From Methanolobus sp. (GTDB lineage Archaea > Halobacteriota > Methanosarcinia > Methanosarcinales > Methanosarcinaceae), in NCBI RefSeq assembly GCF_016278365.1, contig NZ_JADQBZ010000004.1:173166-237165 (forward strand): a stretch of 64,000 bases of DNA. The letters are read 5' to 3'. The number at the start of each line of letters is the position of its first letter. Within the stretch, counting starts at the first letter, position 1. Made by a program: the position numbers and the translations under genes. Of this stretch, positions 6,973 to 27,812 are shown piece by piece. The notes below the pieces were generated by a model that had not been told where the DNA came from, searched no databases, and saw only the letters and a list, made by a program, of their open reading frames with translations.

Positions 6973-8414
6973 TGAAGGTTACGGTCCTCATTCATTTTCT
7001 GCAGTAACTCGATGACCGAATAGGCTGCACGTGTGATGCCCATGCTACGGCTATCGGTATCGGTGCCTGCAACATAGAGGTTATTGATCGGCGTCCTCGC
7101 ATCTGCAAAATATCCGTTAATGGTCACTGCTGCCTTCTCCGGAATTGTGATCTGTTCGTGCTTCATCTGGATATGGTCTTCAATACAGGGGATAGCACGG
7201 AAAATCGTCTCATAGGCATTTTTGATTTCTGAGCTTTCGCTCTTTTCCTCTTTGATGATGAAGGAGAAACCTACAAGCTGCTTGCCCTTGGGTGCAAGGG
7301 ACGAGTCGTAGTTAGTGATGGGCATTGCCCAGTAGGGTTGGTTCTTGAACCAGATCTCTGATCCGATATAGTTGAATTCCTCAAGCAGGGAATCAAGCCC
7401 GAGCCATACTGTCAGGCTTTTTGTATGGTCCACACCTTTAAGTTCCTCTACATATGAGCTTGGCAATGTCTCGACCATCTTTGGAAGGTCCGTAACAAAT
7501 CCGGTGTAAACAACAGTATTTGCATAGTAGGTTTCATCTGCTTCAACACCGACAACCTTTCCGTTACTTGTAAGTATCTTCTTGACCTCGCATCCTGTCT
7601 TGATCTCCACGCTCTTTGGAAGAGAAAATAAAACTGCATTGAGGAGTGACTTCAATCCTTTTCGCGGGTATCCCTGAGAATAACTTACTTTGTTGGTGGC
7701 AAGCCTTCCAAGGGTTGTGAGTGGCTTGGATGCCTTGTTCATCCTTGTCTGCAGGGATGTGTGCAGGTTAGACGTCAATATGGATTTGAGAACTGGCTCA
7801 GTTTGCGGTTTTTCATGAACCTTCATAATACTTTCCATCTGCTCCTGAAGAACGCTGTCCCTGACAAAACTGCTACCTGAAAGAACTCTTTGCACAGATG
7901 TTTCTTTCATGTCTCTTCCCGAGAGGAAATATGAAATTGCATCCACAAAATCATAAGTGTCCTTTGATAGGTTATCAGACATGAAATCATAGACCGACTG
8001 CTTTGAAAGATCAATTCCAAATGTGAAGAGTGTCAGAGCTTTGGTAATAGCCTGTGAAACTACGATTCTGTCTTTTCTGGGTAGCACATCGAACGTAACA
8101 AAGTCTCTTACATTTGAGGGAACTTTAAGGAACTGGTCTTCGGTTCTTACATAATAGTGGCCATAGTCTTCAAAAACAGGCATGTAATCAAAATAATTGT
8201 CCATCAACCTTCTCAGCGGTCCCACTTCCAGATGTGTGATGGCGTGTGCACCTGTATCGACCTGGAAACCATCCACTACATAACTATTGCAGTTTCCACC
8301 TATGTTATTATTCTTTTCGAGGACCAGTACTTTATTTCCGTGTTTTGATAGTGTGAGTGCTGATAGCAGGCCGCTTATACCTGCACCTACAACTATTACG
8401 TCGTATTTCTCCAT
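6966..8414 (-). CDS. FAD-dependent oxidoreductase, phytoene desaturase-like
   Basis: The 482-residue protein begins with a dinucleotide-binding fold, VVVGAGISGLLSAL, followed by the acidic end of beta-2 (VLVLEKNNNIGGNC). It ends with the family's second FAD contact, LYVAGTDTDSRSMGITRAAYS. It belongs to the broad phytoene dehydrogenase/COG1233 group, which includes carotenoid desaturases, isoprenoid reductases and amine oxidase-like enzymes. In methanogens such enzymes could act on isoprenoid lipids or quinone-like carriers, but substrate cannot be read from sequence. It lies downstream of purC with a 46-base gap, probably a separate function. Confidence 0.85.
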   Translation of the reverse strand: MEKYDVIVVGAGISGLLSALTLSKHGNKVLVLEKNNNIGGNCNSYVVDGFQVDTGAHAITHLEVGPLRRLMDNYFDYMPVFEDYGHYYVRTEDQFLKVPSNVRDFVTFDVLPRKDRIVVSQAITKALTLFTFGIDLSKQSVYDFMSDNLSKDTYDFVDAISYFLSGRDMKETSVQRVLSGSSFVRDSVLQEQMESIMKVHEKPQTEPVLKSILTSNLHTSLQTRMNKASKPLTTLGRLATNKVSYSQGYPRKGLKSLLNAVLFSLPKSVEIKTGCEVKKILTSNGKVVGVEADETYYANTVVYTGFVTDLPKMVETLPSSYVEELKGVDHTKSLTVWLGLDSLLEEFNYIGSEIWFKNQPYWAMPITNYDSSLAPKGKQLVGFSFIIKEEKSESSEIKNAYETIFRAIPCIEDHIQMKHEQITIPEKAAVTINGYFADARTPINNLYVAGTDTDSRSMGITRAAYSVIELLQKMNEDRNLHK

Positions 8415-8460
8415 CCTTTCCCCTCAGACTGCGTATAAATGTAAAATAGTGAAAGAGATA

Positions 8461-9174
8461 TTACTCGAATATCTCTGGTACAATGCGTCTTGCGACTTCC
8501 TCATATGCCTTGGAAAGGTCTCCCTTGTCAAAGCGGAATATATCCTTATCCATGGACTGTCCCGTGCTCTTGTCCCATAACCTGCAGGTATCACAGGATA
8601 TCTCATCGGCCAGTACGATCTCCCCTCTCTTTCTTCCAAACTCAAGCTTAAAGTCCGGAAGCAGGAATCCTTTTGAATCCAGATACTTCACAAGGATATC
8701 GTTGATCTTTAGGGCCATGGCACGTATCTGGGCTATCTCTTCATATGTGGCAATTCCCATCGCGACGGCTATATCTTCATTGAGCATCGGATCTCCATGC
8801 TCATCGCTCTTGTAGTCCAGAACGATGACCGGCTTCTTGAAGACAGTTCCCTCTTTTATCGGATATTTGCGGGTAATGGAGCCGGCTGCGATGTTACGTG
8901 GTATGACCTCTATGAGAATTATCTCGACGGCATCGACAAGCATCTCTGTATCAGACACCATCTCTATATAGTGGGTCTTAATGCCTTCTTTCTCAAGCAT
9001 CTCGAATATCTTCTTTGAGATCTGGGCATTGTAATATCCTTTCTTTGCAGCCTCACTCTTTTTTTTTCCATCAAATGCTGTCAGGCTGTCCCTGAACTCA
9101 GCAATAAGTCTGTTTGGATTGTCGGTCTTGTATATGGTCTTTGCTTTCCCTGAATACAATTCTTCTTTTTTCAT
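8461..9174 (-). CDS. purC: SAICAR synthetase
   Basis: 237 residues, full length for the short archaeal/bacterial form. It joins aspartate to CAIR in purine synthesis. Seen: N-terminal [14 protein letters not shown], the [18 protein letters not shown] segment, the FKLEFGR element and the [13 protein letters not shown] motif near the end that binds nucleotide. A strong ribosome site, GAGGAGTGAT, lies just before the ATG. The gene faces away from nikR across a 163-base intergenic region. Confidence 0.96.
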
Positions 9175-15251: not shown

Positions 15252-15536
15252 CTATTTAATAAAAAGCCCGCACTTGCAGGAGCCGCGCGTTTCAAGATCT
15301 ATTTTATGCGCTGCACATGGGCAAATGATCTTCTTGTCCTTTTCTTTGTCTTCTGTCCTCTTCTGGCAGAAGCAGTACCATTCTCCGAGCAGTTTCTTGT
15401 TATTGCAGATGCCTTTAACTGCAGTAGTGATGACATCCCAGTCGCTGTTCAGCCTGTATCCTGAGTTTTCTGCATTTTTCTTCGAACGTTCATAGAATTC
15501 AGCTTCAAGTTCACCATCAAATCTCATTTTTATCAC
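15252..15536 (-). CDS. Ferredoxin:thioredoxin reductase catalytic-subunit homologue
   Basis: 94 residues. The pattern of six cysteines matches FTR-beta: a first CFC pair (EWYCFCQKR), then ICPC and a final CKCGLF. In FTR these hold a 4Fe-4S cluster beside the active disulfide and pass ferredoxin electrons to thioredoxin. Here the usual first CPC is CFC. Methanosarcinales carry FTR homologues used in redox control, which fits the neighbouring FprA and rubrerythrin genes. A better start could be the third residue after Met1 (MRFDG). No FTR alpha subunit is visible. Confidence 0.85.
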   Translation of the reverse strand: MIKMRFDGELEAEFYERSKKNAENSGYRLNSDWDVITTAVKGICNNKKLLGEWYCFCQKRTEDKEKDKKIICPCAAHKIDLETRGSCKCGLFIK

Positions 15537-15585: not shown

Positions 15586-16797
15586 TTAAGACTTTGCTTC
15601 TTCTTTTGCAATTTCCGCAAGCCTTTTTCCGATATCTCTGCACTGCTTCAGGTCATCCTCAAATGGCCTGAACTTGACCTGCAGGCTTTCGGTTGCAAGT
15701 TCGAACCTTGCAGATTCTATCTCCTTTTCCATGCCTTTAACAGCTCCACCTCCCCATCCGTAGGAGCCGAACAGGAAGTATTTCTTGTTCTTTGGATGAA
15801 GCCCTGTCATGTACGTAAGAAACCCTGCTACTGTGTAAAACATCTTATTGTTCATTGTGGGGGAGCCAATAGCAATGACCGGTGAATCCATTAGCTCCTT
15901 CATGGTCATACTCCAGTCGTTCTTTCTCAAATGGCGCACCCTTACTTCCACGCCTGCTTCTCTTACACCCTCAGCTATCTCCATTGCCATTTTCTCAGTG
16001 CTGCCCCACATGGTATCATAGATCACAAGCACCTTTTGGGCAGCTTCTCCCCTGGCCCATCTGCCATAGGCTTCAATTATCCTTGCAGGATCCCTCCTCC
16101 AGATGACACCGTGAGCGGGGGCTATCATGTCTATGCTTATCCCAAGCTCTTTTACCTTCTCCACATACTTGATGACCTGGCCACTAAAAGGCAGCAGGAT
16201 ATTCGCATAGTAGATGGCAGCATCCTCCATGACATCCTCCACTTCATCATCAAAGCGTTTGGAAGTTGCAATGTGCTGGCCAAATGCATCGTTGGAGAAC
16301 AGTATTTTGTCTTCCCTGAGGTATGTCTGCATGCTATCGGGCCAGTGCAGCATAGTTGCCTCAATGAACATCAGTGTCCGCTTTCCGAGGCTTATCTCAT
16401 CTCCGGTCTTTGCTACCTGGAAGTTCCAGTTGTCGCAGCCCATCTCCCTGTAATGCTCGCAGAGCCCGGACTTACCTTTGGAACTTGCAATAAGGGTAGC
16501 ATTTGTAGCGATGTCCATTATCGCAGGCAATGACCCGGAATGGTCCATCTCCACATGGTTGGAGATAACATAATCTATCTTGGCAGGGTCAATTATCTGA
16601 CTTATTCTCTTAAGCATCTCTTCGGAAAAGCTTGCCTTTACCGTGTCGATAAGTGCTATCTTTTCATCAACTATAAGGTACGCGTTGTAACTTCCACCTT
16701 TTGGAGTCTCGTATCCATGAAAGTCCCTCAGGTTCCAGTCAACAACACCTACCCAGTATATCCCCTCTGCTATCTTCAGTGGCTGTGGCTCATCCAT
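15586..16797 (-). CDS. fprA: A-type flavoprotein, F420H2 oxidase
   Basis: About 403 residues. The N-terminal metallo-beta-lactamase-like domain carries the di-iron ligands NHVEMDHSG. The C-terminal flavodoxin domain starts near VLVIYDTMWGSTEKMA, the FMN phosphate loop. In methanogens such FprA proteins reduce O2 to water with F420H2. The track starts at 16812, but GGAGAT there is a ribosome site for the ATG at 16797 (MDEPQPLKIAEG). It follows the rubrerythrin-like gene by about 20 bases, forming an O2/peroxide defence operon with it. Use as a nitric oxide reductase is an alternative for the family. Confidence 0.94.
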   Translation of the reverse strand: MDEPQPLKIAEGIYWVGVVDWNLRDFHGYETPKGGSYNAYLIVDEKIALIDTVKASFSEEMLKRISQIIDPAKIDYVISNHVEMDHSGSLPAIMDIATNATLIASSKGKSGLCEHYREMGCDNWNFQVAKTGDEISLGKRTLMFIEATMLHWPDSMQTYLREDKILFSNDAFGQHIATSKRFDDEVEDVMEDAAIYYANILLPFSGQVIKYVEKVKELGISIDMIAPAHGVIWRRDPARIIEAYGRWARGEAAQKVLVIYDTMWGSTEKMAMEIAEGVREAGVEVRVRHLRKNDWSMTMKELMDSPVIAIGSPTMNNKMFYTVAGFLTYMTGLHPKNKKYFLFGSYGWGGGAVKGMEKEIESARFELATESLQVKFRPFEDDLKQCRDIGKRLAEIAKEEAKS

Positions 16798-16817
16798 AAG
16801 CATTATCTCCATCTAAA

Positions 16818-17312
16818 TTATGTCTGCATTCTGAACTCGGTTGCCCATTCGAGAAGTTCGTCTATTATCCTGTAATGTCCTCTCTCGGCAGCTGCAACGT
16901 TCTCAAAGAAAACCCTCTGATCCTCATCATCTGCCCTCTTTGCCAGTTCTGTGTAGAAATACTCACTCTTGTGCTCAAATCTCAGGGCCGCCAGCAATAT
17001 TCCCACCTCTTCCAGTTTCTTTCCGGAGAACTCTTCCGCAAAAGATGCCTTGAAATCGGGGTAATCAAACTCAACGACAGGTGCCTTTTTCTGTTCCCTG
17101 TATTGCCGAAGATACTCAGCATGTTTCTTTTCCTCTTCTGCAAGGAAAGTGTAAAGATCCCTGGCAACCGCATTGCTCATAGAAGATGCTTTTTCCAGAT
17201 AGTATTCCCGCCCTTCGTTTTCCAGCTCAATGGCCATGGCAATTGCTTCATCGATCGATCCGAGCTGGTCAAGCTCATCTGCTATTTCCTTTAAGGTGTC
17301 TTTCATGCCCAT
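16818..17312 (-). CDS. Rubrerythrin-like ferritin-family protein
   Basis: 164 residues, a four-helix di-iron fold with the repeated Glu...ExxH ligands: AIAMAIELENEGREYY with AEEEKKHAEYL, and LRFEHKSEYFY with AAAERGHYRI. The C-terminal rubredoxin domain of classic rubrerythrin is absent, so electrons must come from a partner. Likely role: peroxide or O2 reduction, or iron handling. It heads the operon with fprA, under the dyad-flanked promoter at 17403-17439. Confidence 0.88.
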   Translation of the reverse strand: MGMKDTLKEIADELDQLGSIDEAIAMAIELENEGREYYLEKASSMSNAVARDLYTFLAEEEKKHAEYLRQYREQKKAPVVEFDYPDFKASFAEEFSGKKLEEVGILLAALRFEHKSEYFYTELAKRADDEDQRVFFENVAAAERGHYRIIDELLEWATEFRMQT

Positions 17313-19589: not shown

Positions 19590-20135
19590 TCAATCCTTGC
19601 TCACGCCAACTATATCATATATATCAGCGGGGCTCTCCAGCACCGTGATATTTTCCATTTGTGCAAGCTTCTCGGAATTGGAAACATCAGCTTCTCTCAT
19701 TTTGAGTAGCATTTGTCTTCCTTCGGGAGAAGCGGTTTTTACAGTCCCTCTTTTCTGGTCAACTGCAAGTATGTAGATAGGAGTTTCACCTTTTGCTGTC
19801 TGTGCAACAGCATTGGTAACAAGGGTATCTGCGATGCCACAGACTATTTTTGCAACGGTATTGGCGGTTGCAGGAGCAATGATAAGTGCATCATAGTGGC
19901 CCACCTGAAGGGGACCGGCGATAAATGGCGAGTTTGGACCTCCTTCTGTCTTGAAGTTGGGAAAATCCCTCTGTATATCGTCCCACATCCTGTACCATTT
20001 CATAACAACTTCCCCTTCTTTTGAAAGGAAGACCATCATTTCGATGTCAGTCTTCTTTTTAATGTCCACCATTATGTCGTACGTTTCCTTAATCAGGTCG
20101 CCTGAACCTGTTATTCCCCATGCTATTCTCTTCAT
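19590..20135 (-). CDS. afpA: Archaeoflavoprotein AfpA
   Basis: 181 residues of the archaeal flavoprotein family TIGR02699, a Dfp/UbiX-like fold that binds FMN. Seen: WGITGSGDLIKETYDIM at the N-terminus, the PFIAGPLQVGHYDALIIAPATANTV region, which forms the flavin pocket, and IADTLVTNA. In Archaeoglobus AfpA accepts electrons from a ferredoxin system and its physiological acceptor is unclear. Here it ends a one-strand cluster that supplies its own ferredoxin, Isf and FNR-like protein. Gap to the FNR gene is 52 bases. Confidence 0.92.
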   Translation of the reverse strand: MKRIAWGITGSGDLIKETYDIMVDIKKKTDIEMMVFLSKEGEVVMKWYRMWDDIQRDFPNFKTEGGPNSPFIAGPLQVGHYDALIIAPATANTVAKIVCGIADTLVTNAVAQTAKGETPIYILAVDQKRGTVKTASPEGRQMLLKMREADVSNSEKLAQMENITVLESPADIYDIVGVSKD

Positions 20136-20187
20136 TCAATGTCTCCTCGTATCTTATTGCAATAATTGTCCTGACATTTCCGGGATG

Positions 20188-20886
20188 TCAGTATCCTATA
20201 AGTGATTCCTTCTTGACCCTCATATCCGGGATACTCATGGAGCGTAGCATTTCCGTCATGGAATCCACCATGGATGGAGGTCCGCAAATGTAGAATTCCC
20301 TTGCCGCATAGTCAGGGGCCTCCTTTCGTATCAGGTTCTCATTGATCCTCTCCCTGCATCCTGTCCAGCTTTCGGAGGCTCTGGTCAGGGTCTGGAATAC
20401 GGTAAGGTGAGGATTCTGCCGGACCATTTCTGATAACTCTTTCCAGAATACCATATCCTCCTCAGTCCTGTCACTACAGATCAGCACTACATCCGTATCC
20501 AGTTTCAGGTCAGTACAGTACCTGCAGATACTTCTCATGGGTGCTATGCCTATTCCACCGCTAAGCAAGACTATCTTTCCATACTCTCCTTCGTAACTCA
20601 TTTTTCCGAAGGGACCACTGATATTGAAAGGGTATCCGGTCTCCATGGAATCCAGTGCATTTGAGAATTCGTGGCCGGTAAGTTTCTTTGTGAATTCCAG
20701 GTGGTCCTTTTCTGTCGGGCTGCTGGATAAGCTGAAAGGCTTGCTGACGCTCTTCCCATTGAAATCCAATGTTACTACAATGTACTGCCCGGCTTTGTAG
20801 TCAAAATCATCAGGTCTTTTGAACCTGAAGCTCTTTACATTTGCGCTGCGCTGGATTATTTCACTTATATTTGCCTGGAATTTCAA
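20188..20886 (-). CDS. FNR-type FAD oxidoreductase
   Basis: 232 residues in the ferredoxin-NADP reductase superfamily. The FAD domain has the KPFSLSSSPTEKD motif near residue 68. The NAD(P) domain has GGIGIAPMRSICRY near residue 112, and YICGPPSMVDSM near residue 200. There is no attached 2Fe-2S domain. It probably shuttles electrons between NAD(P)H and the ferredoxin, Isf or AfpA encoded alongside. It is five bases downstream of isf, so tightly co-translated. Confidence 0.9.
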   Translation of the reverse strand: MKFQANISEIIQRSANVKSFRFKRPDDFDYKAGQYIVVTLDFNGKSVSKPFSLSSSPTEKDHLEFTKKLTGHEFSNALDSMETGYPFNISGPFGKMSYEGEYGKIVLLSGGIGIAPMRSICRYCTDLKLDTDVVLICSDRTEEDMVFWKELSEMVRQNPHLTVFQTLTRASESWTGCRERINENLIRKEAPDYAAREFYICGPPSMVDSMTEMLRSMSIPDMRVKKESLIGY

Positions 20887-20891
20887 GATAC

Positions 20892-21524
20892 TTACTCCTG
20901 TTGTATCTTTTTGATTAGCTGAGCTGTCTCGATCAGCTTCTTCATTGTCCTGCGAAGGCTCCTGAGACCGTCAGGGTCTTCAGACACTCCTTCTGCTCCC
21001 TTGTCCTTTGACCAGAAAGTTCCGCCAAGGTTGGAACCGAAGGACCCTCCACCCACAGGTATCATTTCGCTGATAACATAAAAATCATGTATGGACCGGA
21101 TTGCAGGTTCCTGGCCTCCTATCCTGTCACCGCCCACTGCAGCTGCAGCACCAACCTTGTTCAGGAATACTTTTGGGTCGCGTGCAACCACAGCCCTGCA
21201 CCTGTCCAGTATGGTCTTTGTCTGGGCGCTGAGCGTGCCCTGGTAAACAGGAGTGCCGATTATCCAGGCATCAGCCCAGATCATTCTATCATACAGCTCC
21301 ACAAGATCATCTTTGTGGATGCAGCCCTGCTTAGTACGCACACAGTAGTCACAGTGGATGCAGAATTTCATATCCTTCCCGCTGGCAGAGAAATACTCCG
21401 TCTCTGCGCCGAACTTCTCCTGTGCATATCGCAAGGCTTCATTCACAATAAAATCAGTGGCTTTCTTCCTGGGGCTGCCAGATATACCCAGTAGCCGGAT
21501 AGCTGAACCTTCAGACAATGGCAC
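20892..21524 (-). CDS. isf: Iron-sulfur flavoprotein (Isf)
   Basis: 210 residues, flavodoxin-like fold of the NADPH-dependent FMN reductase group with LLGISGSPRKKAT as the FMN phosphate loop. The compact motif CIHCDYCVRTKQGC (Cys at +0, +3, +6, +13) is the Isf 4Fe-4S signature. In Methanosarcina Isf takes electrons from ferredoxin and reduces O2 or peroxide. The ferredoxin gene lies 14 bases upstream, matching that partnership. Confidence 0.93.
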   Translation of the reverse strand: MPLSEGSAIRLLGISGSPRKKATDFIVNEALRYAQEKFGAETEYFSASGKDMKFCIHCDYCVRTKQGCIHKDDLVELYDRMIWADAWIIGTPVYQGTLSAQTKTILDRCRAVVARDPKVFLNKVGAAAAVGGDRIGGQEPAIRSIHDFYVISEMIPVGGGSFGSNLGGTFWSKDKGAEGVSEDPDGLRSLRRTMKKLIETAQLIKKIQQE

Positions 21525-21538
21525 TCCAACCTCCTTGT

Positions 21539-21730
21539 TTATTCAATGGTTATTGATTCTGTGGGGCAGGCATCCACACAGATACCACATTCCACACAAT
21601 CTTCAGGTCTTGCAATAACGGACTTCATGTCCCCGTTATTGTCTTTCTGAATCTCTATTACATCTGTCGGGCATGCCTGAACACATGCTCCGATGCCTTC
21701 ACACTTGCTTTTATCTACTTTTGCCGGCAC
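21539..21730 (-). CDS. Two-cluster ferredoxin with an incomplete first motif
   Basis: 63 residues in the 2[4Fe-4S] ferredoxin family. The second motif is complete (CVECGICVDACP). The first reads CEGIGACVQACP: the second of its four cysteines is Ile, so that site could carry only a 3Fe-4S centre or a 4Fe-4S with another ligand. Encoded between a membrane protein and Isf, it is the obvious donor for Isf and AfpA. Start ATG confirmed by AGGAG in the preceding spacer. Confidence 0.93.
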   Translation of the reverse strand: MPAKVDKSKCEGIGACVQACPTDVIEIQKDNNGDMKSVIARPEDCVECGICVDACPTESITIE

Positions 21731-21746
21731 TACTATATCCTCCTTT

Positions 21747-22142
21747 TCATTGTTTTTTATATGAGCCTATAATTGTCAGGGTCATTGTCAACGCTGCCAG
21801 GACCTTCAATGCCGCAGAAGCCATGAATCCGGGAGCCTGCTCCTGGGATTCAAAAGGTTTTTCCGGGTCATGGATTCTGCCGGATGCCTTCCCCATGGCT
21901 ATTACCGGTACTTCATGGATCCCTTCTCCAAACAAGTGGTCTATGAGTTTCTGAGGTGCTGACATATAATTGAGAGTCGCGTCAACAGTCAACGGATAAG
22001 ATGTGTTGTCAGGCGGGGTGAACATATGTTGCTCTCTCACAGTTTCCCGGGGAGCTATCCTGTTATCGTCAATCACCTTTTCAGCAAGCCAGAAACTTAT
22101 TGCAGCGACAATAAAAATAATGATGTATCTGATGATGAACAC
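21747..22142 (-). CDS. Two-helix membrane protein of the redox cluster
   Basis: 131 residues, family not recognised. A hydrophobic N-terminal helix (residues 3-20, IIRYIIIFIVAAISFWLA) and a C-terminal one (about 108-127, ASAALKVLAALTMTLTIIG) enclose an 85-residue polar loop without Cys pairs or known motifs. It sits 16 bases upstream of the ferredoxin gene. It could anchor the soluble electron carriers at the membrane. That role is inference from context only. Confidence 0.65.
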   Translation of the reverse strand: MFIIRYIIIFIVAAISFWLAEKVIDDNRIAPRETVREQHMFTPPDNTSYPLTVDATLNYMSAPQKLIDHLFGEGIHEVPVIAMGKASGRIHDPEKPFESQEQAPGFMASAALKVLAALTMTLTIIGSYKKQ

Positions 22143-22242
22143 TCCATTTTTACAAGAGCACCTGATCTATAGTTAAGTTATTATGAATGACCCATGAACA
22201 ATAATTAAATTGAAGAGGATCTTTATGATCCCCTCGAAGCTT

Positions 22243-22656
22243 TCATCTTAGCATCTTCAATGCATGCCTGCAGGCTGCAACAGCCGGTGCACCTGAGGTT
22301 ATGAAAATCACATCCATGACTTCCATGATCTCATCCTTGGTTGCTCCGTTGTTGAGCGCGCTCTTCATCTGCGCCGCCACACAGGCCTCACACTGCTTTG
22401 AAGCGACCACTGCAAGTGCCATCAGGATCTTTGTTTTGGCAGGAAGTGCACCATCCTGGAGCAATTTGCTGTTGCACATGTTGTACTTGTGCAGGAACTC
22501 CGGCTCAAGCTCATCAAGGGTTTCCAGTATGTGAGGTGTGAATCCCAGCTTATCTGACATATCCCCAAGTAAACCATCGCGTCTTTTTCCTTCCCCGCAC
22601 ATTTTTCTGTCTTCGTTTGGATTTTTATCTCCACACATATTTCTATCTCCGCACAT
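22243..22656 (-). CDS. AhpD-like carboxymuconolactone decarboxylase family protein
   Basis: 137 residues. The AhpD-like core (from about residue 38) has the redox motif CEAC preceded by VVASKQ, as in peroxidase-type members. The first 21 residues carry three MCGx units ([18 protein letters not shown]), adding three cysteines not normal for the family. At DNA level this is an 18-base tandem repeat, and each of the first two units contains a GGAGAT ribosome-site sequence followed by ATG. Probable role: thiol-dependent peroxide reduction within the cluster. Confidence 0.88.
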
Positions 22657-22668
22657 ATCTCTATCTCC
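22615..22668 (-). repeat. 18-base tandem repeat carrying ribosome site and start codon
   Basis: Minus-strand units GGAGATAGAGATATGTGC (22668-22651), GGAGATAGAAATATGTGT (22650-22633) and a decayed third copy (22632-22615). The first unit gives the AhpD-like gene its SD and ATG; the second repeats both in frame, allowing initiation at 22638 as well. Confidence 0.75.
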
Positions 22669-22688
22669 TTTGTATTAGTAATGAACGT

Positions 22689-22904
22689 TCAGTCAAAACC
22701 CTCTTCTATTGTATGACCCAGGCAGTAACTGCACATGAGCCGGGGAAGTCCTTTGGGAAGCCTTTGAACATGAGGTGGTTTTCCAATTGATACCGGCAAT
22801 TCAAGTTCCTTTGCATGGTCCACGCAGAGGCCTTTACCGCAGACTATGCAGACACAAGCAGCTTCAATGTCCTTTTCCGCATCCATGCAATCATAACATT
22901 TCAT
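22689..22904 (-). CDS. DUF2180 zinc-binding small protein (copy 1)
   Basis: 71 residues beginning MKCYDC, with Cys pairs CVCIVCGKGLC and CSYC plus His (VDHAKE). The spacing is that of the archaeal DUF2180 family, which resembles a B-box/AN1-like zinc fold. The track starts one Met earlier (22907); both follow GGTGATATC. Eight-base spacing from the second copy shows an operon. No function is known for the family. Confidence 0.85.
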   Translation of the reverse strand: MKCYDCMDAEKDIEAACVCIVCGKGLCVDHAKELELPVSIGKPPHVQRLPKGLPRLMCSYCLGHTIEEGFD

Positions 22905-22915
22905 CATGATATCAC

Positions 22916-23155
22916 CTAATAGTTCTCTTTCAGGGCTTCATGGCAAGGTATGCATAGTATTTTCTTAATATGCTGTACATCCTCGTACTTACATTCTACT
23001 CCCATTCCGCACTTCAGCTTAATGCTGTATTCTCCTTCCAATACAGGAGAATCTTCCCTTACCAGATGTTGTTTACATACTCCTCGCCCGCAAACTATGC
23101 AGATGGCCACAGTATCGCTGGTTTTCCCATTTTTGGAACACTCATAACATTTCAT
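22916..23155 (-). CDS. DUF2180 zinc-binding small protein (copy 2)
   Basis: 79 residues, MKCYEC at the start, CIVCGRGVCKQH in the middle and CIPC near the end, homologous to the following gene, so the pair arose by tandem duplication. It has an extra central segment, KCGMGVECKYED. Zinc or Fe binding is likely by the Cys/His set. It is the first convincing gene of the 23.2-19.6 kb minus-strand cluster. Confidence 0.85.
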   Translation of the reverse strand: MKCYECSKNGKTSDTVAICIVCGRGVCKQHLVREDSPVLEGEYSIKLKCGMGVECKYEDVQHIKKILCIPCHEALKENY

Positions 23156-23166
23156 GCTAACACTTC

Positions 23167-23361
23167 TTACTGATTATAATCACGCATACTTACTACCATT
23201 TTCAAGGACAGGTCCATATAAAAGGCCTGAATGCTATTAATGTCTCTTTCTGATGTGATGGCTTCCCGAACCTCCACCTCCCTATTTATCTTAGCTGGCA
23301 AATCATCTGGAACTTCCTCAATATATCTGTATCGGTGATGTTGTTTTGCAACTCTGGACAA
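23167..23361 (-). CDS. Doubtful small ORF upstream of DUF2180 genes
   Basis: 64 codons from a TTG, polar sequence, no recognised family, no SD. The open frame runs about 13 more codons upstream to a TAA without any ATG. Amino-acid composition is protein-like (IEEVPDDLPAKINREVEVRE), so it may be a decayed gene end. The palindrome at 23359-23374 overlaps its start, which favours a regulatory leader instead. Confidence 0.25.
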   Translation of the reverse strand: MSRVAKQHHRYRYIEEVPDDLPAKINREVEVREAITSERDINSIQAFYMDLSLKMVVSMRDYNQ

Positions 23362-26175: not shown

Positions 26176-26706
26176 TCAGTGTCCTTCAAGGTCCTTTGCT
26201 TTTTTAATGATCTCATTGAATACGGGGCTACAGCACTTGCCAGTAGGGTTCTTTATTTTACACTGGCTCTTTACACCCGGATCATAATATTTCCTTATGG
26301 CATTTAGATCTGTAATTTTCTGTTCCCTTACAGCTCGCATGACCTCTTCTTGCGTTATCTTGCTGCAGTAACATGCATATCTGGGATTGGCATCATCCTT
26401 GAACCATAAAGGTACAGTAATGTCCGTTTTCCAAAAAATAATGCCTGTCTTGACATTGTAGTAGGCTATGTCGCACTTTTCATTCATGCACAGGTAGTAA
26501 TCCTCTTGGCCTGCTTTCTCTTCCATTTCCTTTTTGAGTAGATGCCTCACTGTGATATTCTCGACATACCTTCCTTTTGTCTTGCAGAGGGGACATGGAG
26601 CACTCGCATTTGAAGTATCCTGTATTTCCCCGCTGCAACAGTTTGGTGTTAATGGAATCTGTTTAAGGGTTATTCCCTTCCCGGTGCCACAACAGCTGTT
26701 TGTCAT
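26176..26706 (-). CDS. CopZ-N-like zinc/2Fe-2S protein
   Basis: 176 residues, 17 or so cysteines. A zinc-type segment (CPLCKTKGRY, then CMNEKCDIAYYN) is followed by a CYCSKITQEEVMRAVRE helix and CKIKNPTGKCC, the pattern of the 2Fe-2S domain found in the N-terminal part of Archaeoglobus CopZ. The HMA copper-chaperone domain of CopZ is missing. The N-terminus has extra CC pairs (NSCCGTG, NCCSG). It lies 38 bases downstream of the ArsR-ArsM gene, so an arsenic or soft-metal handling role is likely. Confidence 0.8.
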   Translation of the reverse strand: MTNSCCGTGKGITLKQIPLTPNCCSGEIQDTSNASAPCPLCKTKGRYVENITVRHLLKKEMEEKAGQEDYYLCMNEKCDIAYYNVKTGIIFWKTDITVPLWFKDDANPRYACYCSKITQEEVMRAVREQKITDLNAIRKYYDPGVKSQCKIKNPTGKCCSPVFNEIIKKAKDLEGH

Positions 26707-26744: not shown

Positions 26745-27776
26745 TTATTTCTTCCTCAATTCAAGCTTCAGGCTTTCCAGCGGATATCCCGAGTACTGCC
26801 TTTTACTGATGTCCTTATCCGCATCTATTATCCTGATAGTGAAACCTGCCTCCCTTATGATCCTGAGATAATCCTCTTTCAGCAAGGCTCCGCCCACGCA
26901 GGCACATATGAGCTTCTCGTCGCTCCTCTCTTCGGGTGTCAGGTCCTTCAGGAGAACTATATCTGACAGATACATCCTCCCATTTTCTTTCAATACTCTG
27001 TGGGCTTCCCTGAAGACCCGGGACTTGTCGGGTGCAAGGTTGATGACACAATTGCTCATGACTACATCCACGGAGCTTGATTCAACAGGTAGTTCCTCGA
27101 TATCTCCTTGTCTGAACTCCACATTGTCAAACTCATACTTTTCAGCATTCTCTCTGGCTTTTGCAAGCATCTCTGCGGTCATATCCACACCGATGACCTT
27201 TCCGGTCTTCCCAACTTTCCTTGCGGCCAGGAAACTGTCAAAACCGGCACCTGAACCCAGGTCAAGCACGACTTCGCCTTCGTGTATGCCCCCGAGTGAT
27301 GTGGGATTCCCGCATCCCAGGCCCAGGTTTGCATCCGAAAAAGAACTGATGTCCTCATTCGAATATCCAATCGAACCTGCTATCTCCTCTCCGCTAAGGT
27401 CATCGCAGCAGCCGCATCCCTGCACCATGCCCAGTGCTATCTTGCCGTACTTTTTCTTTACGACGTGTTTCTTCGTATCTGCATCCATCACGCTTCCGGG
27501 ACAGCATGAATCTACTTTCTCTATCCCGCATTTCTCAAGTGTTTCTTTCATCATCTCATCCTTTATACTGTAAATTACGTATCTGCCATCCTTCTCATAG
27601 CGCAGGATACCTGCTTCCAGAAGTATCTTCAGATGCCGTGATATAGTTGTCTGGTCCTTCCCCGCGATCTCTGAAAAATCACAGGCACAGTGGTCATGTT
27701 TTAGCAGGCATCCGACAATCGTTAATCTGGTCCTGTCTCCCAACGCTTTGAAGAATCTGGCTTTTTCTTCGGTCAT
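26745..27776 (-). CDS. arsM: ArsR-arsenite methyltransferase fusion
   Basis: About 343 residues. Residues 1-85 form an ArsR winged helix ([35 protein letters not shown]) with CAC before the recognition helix. A linker with CC pairs (SCCPGS, GCGCC) leads into an AdoMet methyltransferase ([21 protein letters not shown]) with the ArsM-type Cys residues and [26 protein letters not shown]. It would methylate arsenite and repress its own gene. The track starts at 27797, but that ATG lies inside a dyad; MTEEKARFF at 27776 is the better start. Confidence 0.92.
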
Positions 27777-27790
27777 TATCCATGTATATT

Positions 27791-27812
27791 TGTACATACG
27801 TACATATATCTA
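27791..27812 (-). promoter_or_regulatory. arsM promoter with TGTAC dyad
   Basis: TGTAC-GTAT-GTACA (27804-27791) directly follows the TATA-like AGATATATGTA (27812 downward) on the minus strand and lies 15 bases before the proposed start. Its place over the transcription start fits autorepression by the ArsR domain. Confidence 0.5.

Follow-up and report, generated by a model that had tools for sequence, protein, structure and literature searches.

A Methanolobus redox gene cluster is very likely a variant of the Methanosarcinaceae oxygen-defence operon with a gutted cytochrome and a candidate pterin reductase

What is the function of a run of redox genes that surrounds the archaeoflavoprotein AfpA in a methylotrophic methanogen? 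The question is raised by a 64,000-nucleotide stretch of a Methanolobus sp. genome (contig NZ_JADQBZ010000004.1, positions 173,166 to 237,165; hereafter the window, to which coordinates refer). The genome (G000) comprises 2.87 Mb in 19 contigs. An initial annotation had read eight genes of the window as a single redox, peroxide, or thiol cluster, possibly acting at the membrane, that matched no combined system known as described. We confirmed the eight open reading frames (ORFs), all of which lie on the minus strand from position 23155 to 19590 and are separated, in 5' to 3' order, by 8, 32, 100, 16, 14, 5, and 52 bp. Families were assigned with profile hidden Markov models (HMMs) from Pfam and NCBIfam, which upheld the named families except for a presumed two-helix membrane protein (Table 1). 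The cluster is very likely the Methanolobus form of an operon that defends Methanosarcinaceae against oxygen and reactive oxygen species (ROS). In this strain, the module is predicted to be purely cytoplasmic because an in-frame deletion has removed its extracytoplasmic cytochrome.

The ROS-defence reading is based on a gene-by-gene match to the locus of Methanosarcina acetivorans and on recurrent clustering with superoxide reductase (SOR), rubrerythrin, flavodiiron protein, and ferredoxin:thioredoxin reductase (FTR). In PMC3729527, which cites Lessner & Ferry 2007, the M. acetivorans genes MA4664/MA3734-3743 are presented as a putative operon for proteins of the oxidative stress response. Within it, MA3739 is a five-heme cytochrome c (PMC6703419) and MA3743 is a homologue of FpaA and of F420H2 oxidase (PMC3729527). 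In an M. acetivorans-type locus (L082), the order DUF2180-DUF2180-CMD-SOR-cytochrome-Isf-AfpA-rubrerythrin-flavodiiron fits this operon when anchored on MA3739 and MA3743. The window shares with it two DUF2180 genes, MdrA (the CMD protein), a cytochrome, Isf, AfpA, rubrerythrin, and flavodiiron protein, all in the same order. The combined system, then, does have a described counterpart. The two loci nevertheless differ. The window has no SOR gene between CMD and cytochrome, has gained ferredoxin (Fd) and FNR-type reductase genes, and retains only a cytochrome remnant from which the heme region has been lost. In addition, an INO1-DUF429 pair on the opposite strand separates afpA from the rubrerythrin and flavodiiron genes. 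Since SOR is missing, we consider the window cluster a variant of the M. acetivorans operon and not identical to it. The Methanolobus variant, with its Fd and FNR genes and gutted cytochrome, appears to be new in the literature searched.

To compare gene neighbourhoods, we used 60 AfpA loci from the order together with 80 named loci. The order DUF2180-DUF2180-CMD-cytochrome-(Fd)-Isf-(FNR)-AfpA recurred, with losses of single members, in Methanolobus, Methanomethylovorans, Methanococcoides, Methanohalophilus, Methanohalobium, Methanosalsum, and Methanosarcina. Gene order and strand were the same in nearly all Methanosarcinaceae loci, a degree of conservation far beyond chance that supports the annotated view of one functional cluster. 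The accessory genes vary. Clusters of Methanosarcina lack Fd and FNR but carry an SOR gene (PF01880) between CMD and cytochrome; SOR is also found in the clusters of loci L107, L109, and L166. Several genera have a rubrerythrin gene (PF02915) between FNR and AfpA. Rubrerythrin-like and flavodiiron genes directly follow AfpA in Methanosarcina and lie past two opposite-strand genes in Methanolobus. An FTR-like gene then follows in Methanolobus and several other genera, but not in the Methanosarcina loci examined.

Table 1. Coordinates of the redox cluster, the associated stress genes, and the upstream element in the window.
Feature	Position	Strand	Evidence or remark
DUF2180 protein a, 79 aa	22916..23155	-	Cluster gene 1; PF09947, 77.6 bits
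DUF2180 protein b, 72 aa	22689..22907	-	PF09947, 63.6 bits; three CxxC in 178/179 homologues
CMD/AhpD-fold protein, MdrA (MA3736) orthologue, predicted Fe-S protein disulfide reductase	22243..22656	-	PF02627, 68.9 bits
Remnant of five-heme (cytochrome c554-type) c-type cytochrome, MA3739 orthologue	21747..22142	-	131 aa, 0 CxxCH
Ferredoxin, 63 aa, 2x4Fe-4S-type family match	21539..21730	-	HMM and motif in 55 orthologues
Isf, iron-sulfur flavoprotein, FMN_red fold	20892..21524	-	PF03358, 108 bits; compact Cys motif
FNR-type FAD/NAD(P)H reductase	20188..20886	-	PF00175 and PF00970
AfpA, archaeoflavoprotein (FMN), DmrB-like	19590..20135	-	TIGR02699, 269.6 bits (cut-off 192.45)
Rubrerythrin/ferritin-like protein, second half of stress island	16818..17312	-	PF02915; directly after afpA in Methanosarcina
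Flavodiiron protein (FprA/F420H2 oxidase family), MA3743 equivalent	15586..16812	-	PF19583 and PF00258; synteny
FTR catalytic-chain-like protein	15252..15536	-	PF02943, 55.8 bits
Candidate promoter/operator element ACCGWTACAGATATAT	23321..23336	-	Upstream of cluster; conserved across Methanolobus loci

AfpA had been annotated as lacking a known acceptor. This needs qualifying, because its bacterial homologue DmrB, which restores C1 growth of a dmrA mutant, has been named a dihydromethanopterin reductase (PMC6193120) and thereby suggests an acceptor. An AlphaFold 2 (AF2) model of the window protein (pLDDT 93) found DmrB (PDB 3WIS and 4MWG) as its best fold match (3WIS, E = 1.1e-12, TM 0.79), with a shared FMN flavoprotein fold and 31% identity over the whole length; the sequence match had an E value of 2.5e-18. 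Unlike DmrB, archaeal AfpA is encoded in a stress cluster, and its acceptor is a prediction from this resemblance. AfpA is also homologous to the N-terminal flavoprotein domain of DmrX (TIGR02700), the archaeal dihydromethanopterin reductase. However, AfpA lacks the C-terminal ferredoxin domain, and the window protein matched only the N-terminal part of the DmrX profile at 144.9 bits, under the cut-off of 251.35.

In genome inventories compiled by targeted searches, DmrX fell below its cut-off in 51 of 150 genomes of the order and in 33 of 76 Methanosarcinaceae genomes, including the window genome and closed, single-contig genomes. In a 34th Methanosarcinaceae genome, DmrX is interrupted by a stop. 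The gene was lacking from all sampled Methanosalsum, Methanohalophilus, Methanohalobium, Methanococcoides, Methanomethylovorans, and Methanimicrococcus and from 7 of 24 Methanolobus genomes. AfpA scored over its cut-off in every one of the 33 DmrX-lacking Methanosarcinaceae genomes. Dihydrofolate reductase (DHFR), a potential substitute for DmrX, had no family match in the window genome and none in the other DmrX-lacking genomes checked, save one sub-cut-off match in G019. Finally, reduced Methanimicrococcus genomes (M. blatticola and a relative) encode AfpA outside the cluster, with neither DmrX nor an orthologue of the cluster Isf; these genomes retain Mtr and Mer for anabolism (PMC11362671).

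It is possible that the main role of AfpA is to act as dihydromethanopterin (dihydrosarcinapterin) reductase in DmrX-lacking genomes, as a housekeeping enzyme of the C1 cofactor whose place in a stress operon reflects the re-reduction of O2-oxidised pterin. We put this a little short of an even chance. The presence of AfpA wherever DmrX is lacking, the failure to find a DHFR substitute, the structural match to DmrB, and the retention of AfpA, Mtr, and Mer by Methanimicrococcus all argue for it. Against this, DmrX-bearing genomes also have AfpA, which implies a role beyond simple replacement, and the near universality of AfpA makes the co-occurrence statistically weak. Moreover, there was no obvious difference between AfpA proteins from DmrX-containing and DmrX-lacking genomes, and the literature searched held no acceptor assay of the archaeal protein. 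Tetrahydropterins are oxygen-labile, and for this reason the location of AfpA in a stress operon would be explained if its substrate were a pterin. The economical reading of the model and the genome inventories is that AfpA may be able to reduce dihydromethanopterin. More tentatively, and with the chances rather against it, AfpA could be a second archaeal enzyme for dihydromethanopterin/dihydrosarcinapterin reduction, which takes the place of DmrX in almost half of Methanosarcinaceae and re-reduces the O2-oxidised C1 pterin within the operon. The complementarity of AfpA and DmrX appears to be new in the literature searched.

Two further observations concern AfpA. Genomes of the type of anaerobic methanotrophic archaea (ANME-2; loci L090, L093, L142, L159, and L160) encode a pair of AfpA paralogues: the first shares about 78% identity with window AfpA, and the second, beside an Isf, about 50%. 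In Methanolobus genome G111 (locus L048, positions 7975-8520), the synonymous divergence (dS) of afpA from the window copy is 1.13, compared to 0.14-0.37 for most neighbouring genes, indicating allele replacement by recombination.

The presumed two-helix membrane protein, which had been annotated as a distinct component of the cluster, is what is left of the five-heme cytochrome. The window ORF alone had no match in Pfam or NCBIfam. In 41 of 50 Methanosarcinaceae loci, however, the same position is occupied by a protein of 444-524 aa with five CxxCH motifs, a match to PF13435 (Cytochrome_C554), weak similarity to ExtKL, and a PGF-CTERM-like tail that falls below the cut-off. Compared to the 470-aa, five-CxxCH protein of Methanolobus G129 (locus L054), the window ORF aligns to approximately the first 14 and last 116 residues. 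The deletion of 339 codons in frame has joined the signal helix to the C-terminal anchor and eliminated all hemes; what the ORF still shares with MA3739 is its cluster position, N-terminus, and C-terminal tail. The same deletion junction is found in G111, together with a further in-frame loss of 32 codons. In most gene trees, however, G111 groups with G129 and not with the window, and the shared junction therefore implies recombination or regain in G129.

The remnant is under relaxed selection and evolves nearly unconstrained. Omega of the tail was 0.43-0.60 in comparisons with remnants, while the same columns gave 0.07-0.18 between intact relatives (Fisher P = 0.005 and 0.03 on substitution counts). 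For neighbouring genes, omega was mostly 0.01-0.20, with a value of 0.36 for the short ferredoxin in one pair that rests on six substitutions. The alternative that the 131-aa product is a functional small membrane protein, selected as an anchor for redox proteins, gains some credit from the intact reading frame and from the fact that the 339-codon and 32-codon deletions are both in frame. Yet the elevated omega of the tail and the additional residues deleted in G111 argue against selection, and an ORF this short can remain open by chance at such divergence. We consider a functional anchor improbable. With the supposed small membrane protein identified as a cytochrome remnant, we also reject a membrane redox pathway built around it.

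A second copy of the cytochrome was not found in the window genome, and PF13435 was absent from both G000 and G111. Likewise, no close CxxCH pairs at spacings of 10-40 or 41-70 nt were found in the window genome. The idea that this strain has lost its whole cytochrome c system is unsupported, as CcmC/CcmF-type genes are retained. Other lineages have also dispensed with the cytochrome. It is split by an apparent frameshift in Methanomethylovorans MAG-12, where the split could be a sequencing error, and in Methanococcoides seepicolus (L163 and L164). It is absent from Methanosalsum natronophilum and several Methanosarcina lineages, and genes for cytochrome c maturation were missing as well from three cytochrome-less Methanosarcina lineages that we checked. 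Since relatives with an absent or broken cytochrome keep the flavoproteins, the flavoprotein core is independent of the cytochrome, and the suggested placement of the pathway at the membrane is unsupported in this strain.

These losses bear on whether the cluster is instead a module for extracellular electron transfer (EET), in which cytosolic flavoproteins would pass electrons through methanophenazine to a surface cytochrome. The signal peptide, five hemes, and PGF-CTERM-like anchor of the full-length cytochrome are compatible with EET, as are its weak similarity to ExtKL of Geobacter and the rise of MA3739 transcripts with anthraquinone-2,6-disulfonate (AQDS; PMC6703419). However, the hemes are gone in the window strain, several other lineages keep Isf and AfpA with an absent or broken cytochrome, and the cluster encodes no quinone-reactive membrane subunit. 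Deletion of MA3739 was also without effect on AQDS reduction, direct interspecies electron transfer (DIET), or Fe(0) use (PMC8546582 and PMC10989991). As a complete pathway in the window strain EET is refuted, and as a general account of the cluster we judge it very improbable.

Some evidence weighs against the oxygen-defence reading. MsvR, the known methanogen redox regulator, showed no binding to the operon in M. acetivorans (PMC3729527). The response of MA3739 transcripts to AQDS and DIET (PMC6703419 and PMC8546582) may point to redox functions beyond ROS. Fd and FNR are inessential to the cluster, given that Methanosarcina clusters lack both. Furthermore, the flanking genes mer, fpoF, INO1, and DUF429 are also syntenic in most genera, and thus conservation within the family may be partly passive and is no proof by itself. 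Stronger support than plain conservation comes from loci of other lineages (L077, L089, L090, and L097), where the cluster is rearranged but the same kinds of genes are still found together. That synteny is wholly passive and the genes functionally unrelated is, despite these conserved flanks, highly unlikely: the cluster genes run in one direction and are separated by short gaps, SOR and rubrerythrin are inserted at internal positions, the Methanosarcina arrangement lacks INO1-DUF429, and ANME-2 and other families have related gene sets in rearranged form.

A conserved element lies 100-175 nt 5' of the first cluster gene. With up to two mismatches, ACCGWTACAGATATAT was recovered at 19 of 20 Methanolobus loci, and it also occurs, with mismatches, in Methanomethylovorans; the genome holds a single copy at up to one mismatch. 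In several species, the element is partly palindromic (TTTACCG...CGGTAAA). No MsvR-like TTCGN7-9CGAA sites were found in the 14-26 kb portion of the window that was scanned.

Alignment of homologues of DUF2180 protein a revealed three CxxC motifs and one CxxH, with C3, C6, C19, C22, C27, H30, C68, and C71 invariant. The seven cysteines and one histidine suggest two zinc sites in the DUF2180 proteins. A DUF2180 AF2 model of intermediate confidence (pLDDT 78) had no significant match in a structure search. The cysteines of MdrA are reportedly C39, C67, and C70, all three of which are present in the L082 CMD protein, and MA3736 is said to carry an Fe-S cluster and to have disulfide reductase activity. 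The window CMD protein keeps the equivalents of C39, C67, C70, and C107 (L082 numbering), which are conserved in 84-86 of 86 sequences. Its frame begins with a repeat-like, Cys-rich extension of 23 residues (22580-22656) that the M. acetivorans protein lacks, and translation may actually begin downstream of the annotated start.

The first cluster of the ferredoxin was annotated as unusual, and it is: the motif reads C-x5-C-x3-C-P in 55 of 55 orthologues. With the second cysteine missing in all of them, a 3Fe-4S site is predicted next to a second cluster with the canonical 4Fe-4S motif. Isf has the compact CxxCxxC...C motif, present in 109 of 114 homologues. Cruz and Ferry are said to have found in 2006 that Isf of Methanosarcina reacts with O2 and H2O2. 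The window protein, a predicted Isf, resembles that protein in its FMN_red fold and compact cysteine motif; paralogues also exist. For the FNR-type reductase, the nearest solved structures were NADH-cytochrome b5 reductases and the reductase component of methane monooxygenase.

In the electron flow that we propose, reducing equivalents would enter from cellular ferredoxin, while NAD(P)H electrons would be brought in by FNR and the cluster's own 3Fe/4Fe ferredoxin. Isf would hand electrons to O2 and H2O2, and MdrA would use them for disulfide repair. AfpA would pass ferredoxin electrons to an acceptor of its own, most likely oxidised (dihydro) methanopterin/sarcinapterin. The DUF2180 pair would act as zinc proteins, possibly in sensing or chaperoning. 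An extracytoplasmic five-heme cytochrome would complete the module in most relatives.

Outside the cluster, an ORF at 26745-27797 was read by eye as a fusion of an ArsR-type regulator with an arsenite-methyltransferase-like domain; it lies beside a Cys-rich protein encoded at 26176-26706.

An apparently unknown redox cluster can now be grouped with an oxygen-defence operon that was already known, if little studied, and that proves to be widespread in Methanosarcinaceae. The natural loss of the cytochrome in Methanolobus amounts to a ready-made deletion that uncouples what the module does in the cytosol from any extracellular electron transfer. The comparison also exposes a gap: many methanogens are without DmrX, though all need tetrahydromethanopterin. 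AfpA is a candidate to fill it, and the question of its acceptor becomes directly testable. If AfpA does reduce the oxidised pterin, the operon would repair the methanogenic pathway itself in addition to removing oxidants.

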